In this document: positions 35,164-62,541 of the stretch, in pieces
Layout of the letters: each line of letters begins with the position of its first letter
How positions within the stretch are numbered: position 1 is the stretch's first letter
NCBI RefSeq assembly: GCF_003449015.1
Contig: NZ_QRGD01000002.1
Location: forward strand, 186,001-250,000
Length of the DNA stretch: 64,000 nucleotides
Origin: Aureibaculum luteum
GTDB lineage: Bacteria; Bacteroidota; Bacteroidia; Flavobacteriales; Flavobacteriaceae
Direction: 5' to 3'
Made by a program: the position numbers and the translations under genes
Notes under the pieces: generated by a model
Told to the model about the DNA's origin: nothing
Databases searched by the model: none
The model's input: only the letters and a program-made list of their open reading frames with translations

Positions 35164-35601
35164 TTATTGATTTTTAATTTCAAATCTACCAATTTGAGTT
35201 GCACTTGCTTCATTATCAATTCCCTTTAATAATATCAAAGTCCTTTTTCTTCTGTCTTTGAAGTGTAGTTCGGTCATTAATTGGCTGGGATTCATTTTCA
35301 ATTCTTGTATTCTTTGGTTGTAATGTGCATATACAATGTTATCTCTTTGATAGACATAGTCATACTCTAAAATTGCCTTTTCTTTTTCACCTTTAATTTC
35401 GTAGAGATTTCCTATATACCATTTATAGTCCTTGTTAAGAGCTGATGCTTGTACTAATAGTTTCATAGCTTTATCAAAATCACCTTGCTTAACAAGGCAA
35501 CCAGCTCTGTTGGCCAGATTTCTTGGTGAGTCAAGAGATGATGTTTCGATTTGATGGAATCTTTCAAGGGCACGAGTAATACTATCATTATCATAATACA
35601 A
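35164..35601 (-). pseudogene. TPR-like protein, 5'-truncated by repeat array
   Basis: About 145 codons of helical repeat protein: ALERFHQIETSSLDSPRNLANRAG, CLVKQGDFDKAMKLLVQASA, WYIGNLYEIKGEKEKAILEY. No ATG is available; the frame runs back through a TTG (35599-35601) directly into the conserved core of the first hairpin module (35606 onward), where the coding-like sequence ends. The natural reading is that the array boundary removed the N-terminus and promoter. A short protein from the TTG remains possible. Confidence 0.55.
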
Positions 35602-35605
35602 TTCA

Positions 35606-36302
35606 CCTCTGGTCGTGATCCCTAACGGATATCCTGAACAAGCATAAAAACCATCACATGCTTCGCATGTTTATTTTTTGTTTTCAAACATTTATGAAGT
35701 AATGTTCAAAGGATTACTCCCTCTGGTCGTGGTCCCTAACTACGTAATCCAATACAAACATAGCAACCCAAAAACACGCTGTTTTTGTTTTTCTTTTTAC
35801 TTAATATGATAATCTAAAAGGATTACTCCCTCTGGTCGTGATCCCTGATTGGTAATCCAATACAAACAAAGCAACCCAAAAACACGTTGTGTTTTTATAG
35901 GTTTTTTGTTTTCCATGCACTTACGAAAATCTGTGTAAAGGATTACTCCCTCTGGTCGTGATCCCTAACGGATATCCTGAACAAGCATAAAAACCATCAC
36001 ATGCTTAGCATGTTTGTTTTTGTTTTCAAACATTTATGAAGTAATGTTCAAAGGATTACTCCCTCTGGTCGTGATCCCTGATTGGGAATCCAATACAAAC
36101 ATAGCAACGCAAAAACACGAGGTGTTTTTTAGGTTTTTTGTTTTCCCTTCTCATATGAAAATCTGTGTAAAGGATTACTCCCTCTGGTCGTGATCCCTGA
36201 TTGGGAATCCAATACAAACATAGCAACCCAAAAACACGTTGTGTTTTTATAGGTTTTTTGTTTTCCATGCACTTACGAAAATAAATTTTCGACGTTTTGG
36301 AA
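35606..36302 (-). repeat. Tandem hairpin-module array 1, downstream of tRNA-Ser(UGA)
   Basis: Six copies of a conserved core (minus strand: GGGATCACGACC then AGAGGGAGTAATCC) begin near 35606 (truncated), 35710, 35819, 35939, 36052 and 36171, spaced 104-120 bp. Between cores lie two hairpin types. Type A is AAAACAC-n-GTGTTTT followed by GGGTTGCTATGTTTGTATTGGATT. Type B is ACATGC..GCATGT with a different spacer and appears twice almost identically (modules at 35606 and 35939). The tRNA-proximal end has the palindrome CGAAAATTTATTTTCG. Short frames inside it are products of the repeat, not genes. No cas genes or integrase nearby. Confidence 0.9.
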
Positions 36303-36333
36303 AACAAAAAACCCACAACTTTCGTTGTGGGTT
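36303..36333 (-). terminator. tRNA-Ser(UGA) terminator
   Basis: On the minus strand, AACCCACAAC-GAAA-GTTGTGGGTT followed by a T tract, starting 8 bp after the tRNA 3' end. The same hairpin follows the tRNA-Ser-like gene at 60875. Confidence 0.9.
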
Positions 36334-36341
36334 TCCTTTTG

Positions 36342-36426
36342 CGGAGAAAGAGGGATTCGAACCCCCGGAGGTGTGACCCTCAACAGTTTTCAAGACTGCC
36401 GCATTCGACCACTCTGCCATTTCTCC
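36342..36426 (-). tRNA. tRNA-Ser(UGA)
   Basis: 85 nt with acceptor GGAGAAA/TTTCTCC, long variable arm GAGG-GTCACA-CCTC, T loop TTCGAAT and discriminator G. Anticodon arm GCAGT-CTTGAAA-ACTGT gives a normal 7-nt loop with anticodon UGA. CCA is not encoded. A TATATTTG -7 box lies 12 bp upstream (plus CAAATATA, 36438-36445). Confidence 0.97.
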
Positions 36427-60874: not shown

Positions 60875-60961
60875 GGAGAAATGGCAGAGTGGCTGAATGC
60901 AGCGGTAATTTATTACTGTAGAGGGTTAAACCTCCGAGGGTTCGAATCCCTTCTTTCTCCG
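60875..60961 (+). tRNA. tRNA-Ser-like gene with abnormal anticodon arm (UUA readable)
   Basis: 87 nt with acceptor GGAGAAA/TTTCTCC, D arm GCA...TGC, variable arm GAGG-GTTAAA-CCTC, T loop TTCGAAT and discriminator G, all close to the tRNA-Ser(UGA) at 36342. The anticodon arm is GCGGT-AATTTATT-ACTGT: an 8-nt loop that could zip further to GCGGTAA-TTTA-TTACTGT. With T33 assigned as usual the triplet is UUA, complementary to the UAA stop. An extra base also sits at the 3' side of the T stem. No TAnnTTTG box is seen upstream. Either a decayed copy or an unusual suppressor-like tRNA. Confidence 0.6.
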
Positions 60962-60969
60962 CAAAAGGA

Positions 60970-60999
60970 AACCCACAACGAAAGTTGTGGGTTTTTTGT
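60970..60999 (+). terminator. Terminator after the tRNA-Ser-like gene
   Basis: AACCCACAAC-GAAA-GTTGTGGGTT plus T tract; same as the terminator of tRNA-Ser(UGA), same 8-bp spacing. Confidence 0.9.
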
Positions 61000-61008
61000 T
61001 TTCCCAAA

Positions 61009-61470
61009 CGTCGAAAATTTATTTTCGTAAGTGAAGGGAAAACAAAAAACCCATAAAAACACATCGTGTTTTTGGGTTGCTATGTTTGTATTGGATTCCC
61101 AATCAGGGATCACGACCGCAGGGAGTAATCCACGTATTTATTTTCGTAAGAGCAGGGAAAACAAAAAAACCAAAAAAACACATCGTGTTTTTGGGTTGCT
61201 ATGCTTGCTTAGGATACCCTTTCTGGGATGACGACCGCAGGGAGTAATCCTTGAAATATTTTTGTAAGCGATATGGAAACAAAAAAACCAAAAAAACACA
61301 TCGTGTTTTTGGGTTTCTATGCTTGCTCAGGATGCCTTTTCTGGGATGACGACCACAGGGAGTAATCCTTGAAATATTTTCGTAAGAGAAGGGAAACAAA
61401 AAAACCAAAAAAACACAACGTGTTTTTGGGTTTCTATGCTTGCTCAGGATACCCTATCAGGGATAACGCC
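61009..61470 (+). repeat. Tandem hairpin-module array 2
   Basis: Conserved cores (GGGAT-ACGACC-CAGGGAGTAATCC) begin near 61105, 61224, 61342 and 61459 (last one cut short), spaced 119, 118 and 117 bp. Each module has the palindromic region around ATTTTCGTAAG, a purine-rich GGGAAAACAAAAAAACC stretch, the hairpin AAAAACACATCGTGTTTTT, and a GGATNCC turn. All are type A; no type B module is seen. Same strand as the tRNA-Ser-like gene. Confidence 0.9.
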
Positions 61471-61564
61471 AAATTTTATATTTTGCGGACTTTGTCAATA
61501 AATACAGAACTTTGGAGTTAACACAAAATCGCCCTATGTTTTTTGTACATTGTTACAAAACGTT

Positions 61565-62296
61565 TTATTTATACGAGCCATTCTCATATGTAAGAGTTTC
61601 TGTTTTTTCAGTTACTGTTTCTTTTTCATCACAATCATTATTTTCATTAAGAAAAGCTATTGAATTTGTGATTTTACTTTTGATTAAAATATCTAAGTGA
61701 CTATTTGTTAAGTTATCAGTTATAATTATTGTCTTTTTTTTAGAACTAAATTCTCCAATACAATTGCCGTCCCATTGACCACTATATTCTAAAACATTGT
61801 AATTTTTAAGTAACGTCCTTAAAGAATTATCTTGTGGTTCAAATAAAGTAATTGTTTCATACCCATAAGGGTTAACTCTAGAGTTTCCATTGTATTTAAC
61901 TCTAATTCCAAAAGCTCGTTTTTCATTTGATAAATAATAAGGAGCGGTATCGATTGAAATTTCAACCAATACTACTGCATCAGAAACCCAACCGTTAGAC
62001 TTGTAACTTTCTATATATTTATTTTCAATTTGATAACTTAAGCTATTTACAATTAAGATGTAGCTATTCAACTCAAAACAGCAATCGTTTTGTTCATTAT
62101 ATTCTGTTTCTAGCTTGGGTATTACAACAATTGTTTTAGTAGAATCATTTGGCATTACTTTTTCTACGATTAAATCAGTTTTACAATTAGACAAATTGAT
62201 TTTTAACTCCTTCAATACGCTATCTACTAGATTTGAATGTTGTTGAGCATATAAATTAAAACTCATTAAAAATATAAATATAGAAGATAGTTTCAT
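61565..62296 (-). CDS. Secreted hypothetical protein
   Basis: Start chosen at ATG 62296, which begins a signal peptide (MKLSSIFIFLMSFNLYAQ); longer frames begin inside the leader element. About 243 residues, beta-rich, with DCCFELNSYILIVNSL and WVSDAVVLVEISIDTAPYYL. I do not recognise a family. It lies between array 2 and the solitary module, with leader element copy F upstream. Confidence 0.7.
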   Translation of the reverse strand: MKLSSIFIFLMSFNLYAQQHSNLVDSVLKELKINLSNCKTDLIVEKVMPNDSTKTIVVIPKLETEYNEQNDCCFELNSYILIVNSLSYQIENKYIESYKSNGWVSDAVVLVEISIDTAPYYLSNEKRAFGIRVKYNGNSRVNPYGYETITLFEPQDNSLRTLLKNYNVLEYSGQWDGNCIGEFSSKKKTIIITDNLTNSHLDILIKSKITNSIAFLNENNDCDEKETVTEKTETLTYENGSYK

Positions 62297-62319
62297 TTTA
62301 ATGTTTTGTAAAACAGTTA

Positions 62320-62390
62320 GATATGTACCATTACATATATACTCCGCATATCGCAAATATAAGGAATATAGTGACGTGTAGTTTATTGTT
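62320..62390 (-). promoter_or_regulatory. Recurrent promoter/leader element, copy F
   Basis: Perfect inverted repeat ATATGTA-CCAT-TACATAT, -7 box TATATTTG on the minus strand (plus CAAATATA, 62354-62361) and AATATAGTGACGTGTAGTTT. Directly upstream of the 61565-62296 gene. Confidence 0.6.
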
Positions 62391-62417
62391 TAATCATACG
62401 CTAGTTCGCCATTTAAA

Positions 62418-62541
62418 ACGTCGAAAATTTATTTTCGTAAGAGAAGGGAAAACCAAAACCCAAAAAAACACATTGTGTTTTTGGGTTGCTATGCTTGCTC
62501 AGGATACCCTTTCTGGGATAACGACCGCAGGGAGTAATCCT
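62418..62541 (+). repeat. Solitary hairpin module
   Basis: One complete type-A module with the same left end as after the tRNAs (AACGTCGAAAATTTATTTTC), hairpin AAAAACACATTGTGTTTTT, and core ending GGGAGTAATCC. It is about 950 bp from array 2 and has no adjacent tRNA, so modules can move or survive alone. Confidence 0.88.

Follow-up and report, generated by a model that had tools for sequence, protein, structure and literature searches.

Small gene-free hairpin elements behind tRNA genes of Bacteroidota that seem to move between tRNAs with similar ends

What kind of sequence is repeated in structured units directly behind a tRNA gene and on the strand of that gene? The locus that raises this question lies in a window (the whole stretch of DNA that was analysed) of 64,000 nucleotides from Aureibaculum luteum, contig NZ_QRGD01000002.1. 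An initial annotation had described six copies of a conserved core, separated by two kinds of hairpin spacer in the order B-A-A-B-A-A, directly behind the terminator hairpin of tRNA-Ser(UGA) and on the same (minus) strand. Reading the sequence bears out the position, the strand and the spacer order; the array is real, and the count becomes five complete cores and a truncated sixth. The 26-nt core pattern, with at most 3 mismatches, matches 9 times in the window and 0 times in 100 dinucleotide-preserving shuffles. The core forms a hairpin, which we call P5, and the first array comprises the following features.

36341-36426, minus strand: the host gene tRNA-Ser(UGA), whose stretch from T-loop to 3' end is the proposed attachment site; found by ARAGORN and Rfam tRNA
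36172-36340, minus strand: first, complete element, from the tRNA 3' end to P5 (sequence and fold)
36309-36334, minus strand: hairpin P2, the tRNA terminator, with a GAAA loop (fold and sequence reading)
36257-36308, minus strand: stem P3, the T-tract behind P2 pairing with an A-tract further down, with an inner hairpin (inverted repeat and fold)
36230-36248, minus strand: hairpin P4 (fold)
36172-36197, minus strand: P5 core hairpin, copy 1 (core pattern scan)
36053-36078, minus strand: P5 core hairpin, copy 2 (core pattern scan)
35940-35965, minus strand: P5 core hairpin, copy 3 (core pattern scan)
35820-35845, minus strand: P5 core hairpin, copy 4 (core pattern scan)
35711-35736, minus strand: P5 core hairpin, copy 5, with one change (core pattern scan)
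35606-35622, minus strand: truncated P5, copy 6; the array ends inside this core, adjoining a TPR-motif ORF (35164-35601)

An element is about 165 nt long, starts at the tRNA 3' end, continues as a stem (P1) around three hairpins and ends in P5. By eye, from folds and from an alignment of 45 of 51 references (L110, L148, L157, L158, L161 and L169 left out by hand), its order is the P1 5' strand, P2, P3, P4, the P1 3' strand, a short and often C-rich linker, and P5. P2 is the terminator of the tRNA, P3 pairs the T-tract behind P2 with a downstream A-tract, and P4 often has a C(GNA)G triloop. These folds were read for part of the elements, many middle ones being left out; one element (L110) is without a terminator-like P2 and another (L158) has a different fold. 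Among the 58 elements whose tRNA is 120-165 nt away, 51 have a P1 helix of at least 8 Watson-Crick pairs, compared with 4.1% for swapped 5' and 3' halves. We also observed that P4 in two loci (L113 and L172) has the same GA-GC-RNA-GC-GA cap as P5, hinting at exchange or at a shared binding partner.

The units of array 1 after the first lack the tRNA-proximal half, namely the P1 5' strand, P2 and the 5' part of P3, as read in the sequence, so growth here was probably by partial tandem duplication that always kept P5. The view that ordinary duplication alone is insufficient therefore holds for the family as a whole and probably fails for the growth of this array. The TPR-motif ORF at its end occurs in one of 17 genomes of the genus, the window's own, and is thus uninformative on how the array was truncated.

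Across the whole genome the core (at most 3 mismatches) is found 10 times, and all 10 copies sit in three tRNA-linked arrays, each on the same strand as the tRNA or tRNA-like gene ahead of it; the copies are not scattered. The second array, which the initial annotation lacked, occupies 61020-62540 (plus strand) behind a tRNA-like gene (60875-60962). The third lies elsewhere in the genome behind tRNA-Arg(ACG), where the core occurs once and the units visibly include the end of the tRNA gene. Later units of both window arrays are without a tRNA 3' end. The second array is composed as follows.

60875-60962, plus strand: degenerate tRNA-Ser-like gene heading the array, anticodon not assignable
60963-61131, plus strand: first, complete element, with P5 at 61106-61131
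61225-61250, plus strand: P5 copy 2 (core pattern scan)
61343-61368, plus strand: P5 copy 3 (core pattern scan)
61460-61468, plus strand: P5 cut after GGGATAACG by a gene-bearing insert
62515-62540, plus strand: last P5, beyond the gene-bearing insert

The gene-bearing insert spans about 61469-62410 (limits by eye) and contains an ORF (61565-62356) without a Pfam match; it is common to genome G002 (L040) and not in the array of G001 as displayed. An extra hairpin of stem-GA-stem-GA style adjoins the last P5 (62547-62590, CATTGCGA...GAAGCAATC) and resembles repeats that we take to be common in Bacteroidetes. The tRNA-Ser-like gene at the head of the array, also found in L036, L038 and L216, has a seemingly closed anticodon arm, with a 7-bp stem and a TTTA loop (or an 8-nt loop). 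It is identical over 88/88 positions in G000, G001 and G002 and over 87/88 in G003, where the single change improves the extended stem; the 5' flanks are 96, 77 and 59% alike across these genomes. In the Rfam search of the window it falls below the tRNA gathering score, and it may be a conserved non-decoding tRNA.

These elements reach well beyond the genus. An exact scan for GGATCACGANCNNAGNGAGTAATCC in contigs of at least 3 kb, from genomes of 84,980 bacterial and archaeal species, gave 92 stretches, and all but one are titled Bacteroidota (80 + 12 titles examined). The exception, L155, is a MAG contig titled Euryarchaeota with an element behind tRNA-Pro, and its bin is probably mislabelled. 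A family-level search matched the core in 33 of 395 genomes and in 22 of 203 genera, with zero occurrences of a reversed control pattern among the matches listed. The contig-scan and whole-genome samples overlap (e.g. Aureibaculum flavum and Altibacter) and are hence not independent. Viral contigs gave no core match, and nothing in phages or plasmids matched the window's array.

Linkage to tRNA genes is the most general feature of the family. Using all 92 loci, a same-strand tRNA lies within 600 nt upstream in 66 of the 70 loci that have at least 700 nt of upstream sequence; together with the A. luteum copies (10/10), this contradicts a scatter of cores without tRNA linkage, which the initial annotation had named as an outcome that would speak against its proposal. 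In a set of 80 of the 92 loci, 64 have such a tRNA, random positions in the same loci giving 5.3%, and the tRNA 3' end is 131-157 nt from the core in 51 of the 64. The hosts in this set are 15 anticodons (Ser, Arg, Pro, Met, Val, His, Tyr and Ala) and the tRNA-Ser-like gene. As expected of tRNA targeting, the elements abut the tRNA 3' end in a fixed orientation. Of the four linkage exceptions, L141, L156 and L179 come immediately after an isolated tRNA 3' end, the arrangement that entry of a larger island into the tRNA would leave; in L122 a tRNA-Ser lies 5.4 kb upstream. Of 30 loci from the family search, 23 are preceded by a tRNA on the same strand. The seven without one comprise four behind an isolated tRNA 3' end (L187, L188, L191 and L192), one at a contig edge (L082), and two (L189 and L190) whose position no neighbouring tRNA end explains. 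In L190, at 10019, a P5 without the P1-P4 body lies 2.2 kb behind tRNA-Pro(GGG) and is joined directly to sequence that matches an integrase in its C-terminal part. Finally, the first core has a tRNA upstream in 14 of 14 further stretches, two of which (L238 and L239) repeat places among the 30 family loci.

P5 itself is an imperfect hairpin, GGATCAC-GA-XC-RNA-GX'-GA-GTAATCC, with tandem G.A in the common form and with the first A of AATCC unpaired, as a mismatch in the genus loci and as a bulge in L163 and L231. Among 90 of the 92 first cores (identical contexts dropped), X and X' are Watson-Crick partners in 85 (48.5 expected), and the loop begins with a purine in all 90. In a covariation test of the hairpin, 0 of 500 shuffles reach the observed covariation score, proportion of paired cells or count of doubly changed cells. 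Two other counts, of pairs with changes in both partners (a value reached by 482/500 shuffles) and of pair types (39/500), do not go beyond shuffles, because seven of the nine pairs are fixed by the search pattern and are no evidence. A lack of covariation, another outcome held to count against the proposal, is contradicted by the X/X' pair and by the covariation score.

Within the genus, the core is found within 3 mismatches in 6 of 17 genomes, the window's own included, and its hosts are tRNA-Ser, the tRNA-Ser-like gene or tRNA-Arg; among 13 genus loci scanned for tRNAs, one cut at a contig end (L040) is the only one without. Eleven of 13 genus loci with enough sequence have a hairpin at the same tRNA with compensatory changes, as judged by eye. 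These loci were located via the tRNA and independently of P5, and in some of them the hairpin is rebuilt with other sequences (AAC-GCA-GTT in G005, ACTCC-AAT-GGAGT in G013 and ACC-ATA-GGT in G015). The array behind tRNA-Ser(UGA) has five complete copies in G000, ten in G001, and two with additional degenerate ones in G002, and copy number thus varies between species of the genus. The segment between arrays 1 and 2 is collinear in the same three genomes, which indicates that the arrays change while the segment stays. Within the genus the element has mostly stayed in position, as it would, too, if it served the host.

A host function could take the form of a structured RNA. The units would then be a tRNA 3' trailer that acts on read-through, be it in processing, as a sponge or in regulation, and that is passed on vertically and kept alike among tRNA paralogues by gene conversion. 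The first unit of array 1 has a strong structure (fold z -6.6 as RNA and -6.9 as DNA against shuffles, with P1 weak there), and helix changes in the body favour the tRNA strand (G.T 38 vs A.C 20; A.G 26 vs C.T 15), on which the body also folds better in 45 of 58 cases as RNA and 51 of 58 as DNA. These properties, the fixed orientation and the retained genus hairpins with their compensatory changes all agree with a host RNA. P5 alone is predicted to be more stable on the strand opposite to the tRNA in two of three forms as DNA and in three of three as RNA, which counts against the insertion reading given below. What makes a host RNA rather unlikely in our view is, first, that P2 resembles a full terminator, so that the 3' half would be made by read-through only. 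Second, occupancy of one and the same tRNA is patchy, with both occupied and unoccupied sites: at tRNA-Ser(UGA) a hairpin of this form is present in 2 of 29 genera and the others mostly have a plain terminator (loci from 30 of 60 genomes, one too short; the survey registers the GGAT...AATCC form, so that diverged forms count as absent). Third, the stacking of elements in different orders and their unrelated 5' flanks, described below, need a mobile step.

Of the two possibilities raised by the initial annotation, a mobile hairpin family or a source of small structured RNAs, the first is well supported by within-genome copies, stacking and patchy occurrence. In MAG AS08sgBPME_22 an element is 140/148 identical behind tRNA-Ser(CGA) and tRNA-Ser(GGA), where the tRNA bodies agree at 71/92 positions and the flanks at background level (77/150 for the 5' and 64/120 for the 3' flanks). 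Crocinitomix has elements 136/150 identical behind Arg(UCG) and Arg(ACG), and another MAG has elements 122/139 identical behind Ser(UGA) and Ser(CGA). Such pairs, at 79-94% identity, exist in seven genomes, contigs having been assigned to genomes by hand from record prefixes; in five both copies are behind annotated tRNAs, and in the other two the partner has an isolated tRNA-Ser 3' end in front of it. When the best pair per genome is compared, the 5' flanks are common only over short stretches. The 3' flanks share nothing substantial in four, and similarity extends past P5 in L182/L184 (because a further unit follows), L174/L181 and L103/L157. Six pairs behind tRNAs of different amino acids reach at most 59%, and some pairs of the same amino acid are not close either (L101/L186 0.69, L101/L114 0.66, L143/L170 0.63, and L097 with L128 or L173 0.54-0.56). 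Some of this likeness within genomes could stem from gene conversion between tRNA paralogues. Taken together, the elements seem to move between tRNAs with similar ends and to pile up there.

The piling up is best seen in three loci. In L128, whose tRNA has an encoded CCA, the element is followed by a tRNA 3' end without CCA and then by a remnant that matches, at 69/79 positions, the element resident at tRNA-Ser(GCT) in the same MAG (L097). Beyond the P5 of L097, in turn, lies a stretch 39/41 identical to the L128 element and 40/41 to that of L173; these matches score 72-77, against a shuffled maximum of 24. The reciprocal remnants mean that the two types lie in one order at one tRNA and in the reverse order at the other. 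In L117 two elements separated by a tRNA-Ser 3' end are unrelated (best local match 17/19 nt).

Escherichia coli tyrT is followed by repeats (RtT, or rtT, repeats) in which the 3' end of the tRNA is copied, an arrangement that the elements share. If the 3' quarter of the tRNA had been duplicated in tandem together with its trailer, as in tyrT, and the copies had then diverged without any mobility, this would account for the tandem units, their strongly variable copy number, and the occurrence of tRNA 3' ends within or behind some of the units (L012, L042, L078 and L137). It does not account for the two unrelated bodies in tandem in L117, for the same body behind different tRNA genes, for downstream 3' ends that lack the CCA of the tRNA (L128 and L173), or for a P5 and a spacing common to many tRNA species, and we consider it decidedly unlikely for the family. 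The elements also differ from the tyrT repeats in occurring at many tRNA species, in having a four-helix body and a T-arm-like hairpin, in their apparent movement between tRNA genes and in the stacking of unrelated bodies. Rfam has an RtT family, and RtT gave no match in the Rfam E-value lists of the loci searched. Tandem-repeat slippage alone was likewise rejected or demoted.

The likeness of P5 to a tRNA T-arm suggests how mobility might work. The tRNA reads GG-TTCGA-ATCC where P5 reads GGAT-n-hairpin-A-ATCC, and the arm of P5 fits the tRNA behind which it lies. The comparison covers 63 units, 36 of them at tRNA-Ser, in which a tRNA lies no more than 160 nt away and AATCC can be read. In 57 of these the base before GGAT is complementary to the base after AATCC of the upstream tRNA (shuffled mean 30.4, with 0 of 2000 shuffles reaching the value), and the fit holds in 22 of the 27 units outside tRNA-Ser. 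The same base is complementary to the base now following P5 in fewer units (44/63). A second arm position fits in 28/63 (18.2 expected; 4 of 2000 shuffles), and a third shows no fit (4/63 vs 7.1 expected). Given that the 5' arm fits the target tRNA and that the unpaired junction base is kept, P5 is likely half of an attachment site. The cognate tRNA 3' end follows P5 directly, at 9/12 nt or better, in 6 of 71 loci, as against 0.5% of swapped pairs, and by eye it is recognisable in G006, G007, G013, G014, L117, L187 and L122; in most loci this repeat of the tRNA end is decayed or absent.

We hypothesize, with a probability of roughly 60%, that these are non-autonomous cassettes that insert at the T-loop and 3' end of tRNA genes, with P5 as half of the attachment site and with an enzyme supplied in trans. 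A small non-coding cassette of about 165 bp would insert at the 3' end of a tRNA gene and supply both a replacement for the end of the tRNA gene, starting at A-A-T-C-C in the T-loop, and the terminator P2, which would sit within the structured body P1 to P4. The cassette would end in P5, the T-arm look-alike, with GGAT-n-[hairpin]-A-ATCC in place of GG-TTCGA-ATCC, and the old tRNA 3' end, displaced behind P5, would decay. A later cassette would enter between the tRNA and the earlier one, placing the newest next to the tRNA. P5 may be recognised as a folded strand, with a tyrosine recombinase or a similar enzyme acting in trans, and in the window's arrays the resident elements would then have multiplied by partial tandem duplication that retained P5. 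The data show the structure of the elements, its covariation, the linkage and fit to the tRNA, copies that are nearly identical behind different tRNA genes, the stacking, and sites with and without an element; the insertion process, the part of P5 in it, the enzyme and the folding as single-stranded DNA we infer.

No recombinase gene lies inside any element, and no such ORF fits 165 bp. Two integrase queries matched in 4 of 122 loci, one of the matches being upstream of P5, and 74 of the 122 hold at least 1500 nt of downstream sequence. In L122 an ORF for an integrase N-terminus begins 134 nt beyond P5 and the tRNA 3' end, L094 and L096 have integrase-like fragments after P5, and an ORF for a 415-aa tyrosine recombinase starts no more than about 10 nt from the last P5 of G001. 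Such neighbours would be expected if the elements were scars, or remnants of attachment sites, of larger tRNA-targeting islands, with P5 as part of the island site and the elements as deletion derivatives. We judge this highly unlikely: integrase matches are confined to the four loci, the 15-25 bases before the isolated tRNA 3' end are not P5-like in loci where an island seems to have entered ahead of an element (L187, L188, L191 and L156), and deletions would give random spacing where that between tRNA and core is near-constant. The distal end of array 1 looks like an integration hot spot. Beyond it, the window's 10220-35606 is not common to 2207164-2244577 of G001, and a search for P5 found no second copy marking the far end of the G001 island that abuts the array. 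Islands and integrative mobilizable elements that target tRNAs through tyrosine integrases resemble the elements in using the tRNA 3' end as their site, in bringing a replacement 3' end and, in some cases, in having the old 3' end beyond the element; the present elements differ in their size of about 165 bp, the lack of genes and integrase, and the conserved distal hairpin.

The initial annotation had set the array apart from CRISPR, integron attC sites and known insertion sequences; of the systems compared here, CRISPR, integron attC and REP/RAYT were rejected or demoted. A CRISPR array would have unique spacers of constant length between near-identical short repeats, and the spacers here are themselves repeated and structured. 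An attC site carries the core motif RYYYAAC / GTTRRRY at its recombination end; P5 ends in GTAATCC and lacks this motif, and none of the 33 carrying genomes has an integron integrase (TIGR02249) over the cut-off. Matches to TIGR02249 below the cut-off occur in all 33 carriers and all 14 control genomes, since any tyrosine recombinase gives them. At the ends of REP/RAYT and IS200/IS605 elements lies an imperfect hairpin that pairs, through its 5' foot, with the junction on the 3' side, a property that P5 shares; the present elements differ from them in being tied to tRNA 3' ends. Against these systems, the copies are not dispersed (10/10 in tRNA arrays) and the Y1 transposase (PF01797) is not enriched, with 13 of 33 carriers having it against 19 of 33 non-carriers.

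Integron cassettes are nonetheless instructive. Like cassettes with attC, the elements stack at one insertion point in a constant orientation and end in an imperfect hairpin that keeps one base unpaired where recombination presumably takes place; unlike them, they have no ORF, no attC core motif and no integron integrase, and their insertion point is a tRNA gene. A more ambitious idea, possible and in our view rather doubtful, is a gene-free, integron-like cassette system with tRNA genes as its platform, in which a T-arm-mimic hairpin, folded as a single strand and reading the target with its 5' arm, would be recombined into the T-loop of tRNAs whose 3' end matches, by a recombinase of the host or one acting in trans, in layers across Bacteroidota. 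As a separate observation, L272, L270 and L275 (G118, G085 and G189) contain integron-like gene arrays, with tyrosine recombinases (394 aa in L272) that match the integron-integrase profile below the cut-off and lie near direct repeats of about 130-220 nt; in L272, ORFs lie between the repeats. These are possibly divergent integrons of Flavobacteriaceae.

The family of small gene-free elements is apparently undescribed. In the limited library of literature searched we found no description of such elements, although the 2017 survey of 224 candidate RNAs may contain one, and an Rfam search of the window and 18 loci returned only tRNA at gathering score. A match to LOOT (18.5 bits, gathering score 46.4) is absent from the other Rfam searches of loci and was put down to chance, as were isrK (L173), AbsR25 (L155), MIR1222 (L151) and sX4 (L158), all far below their gathering scores.

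If insertion at tRNA ends is the right reading, the tRNA genes of Bacteroidota host very small mobile elements that have no Rfam match at gathering score and would be among the smallest site-specific mobile elements. Because they come with a terminator and with a substitute for the tRNA end, their insertion into an essential gene could be harmless. The units behind tRNAs would then form a layered record of insertions and would offer a simple means of studying the recognition of a folded strand by a recombinase. Such elements would likewise account for those tRNA-linked hairpin arrays that coincide with assembly breaks and with integration hot spots.
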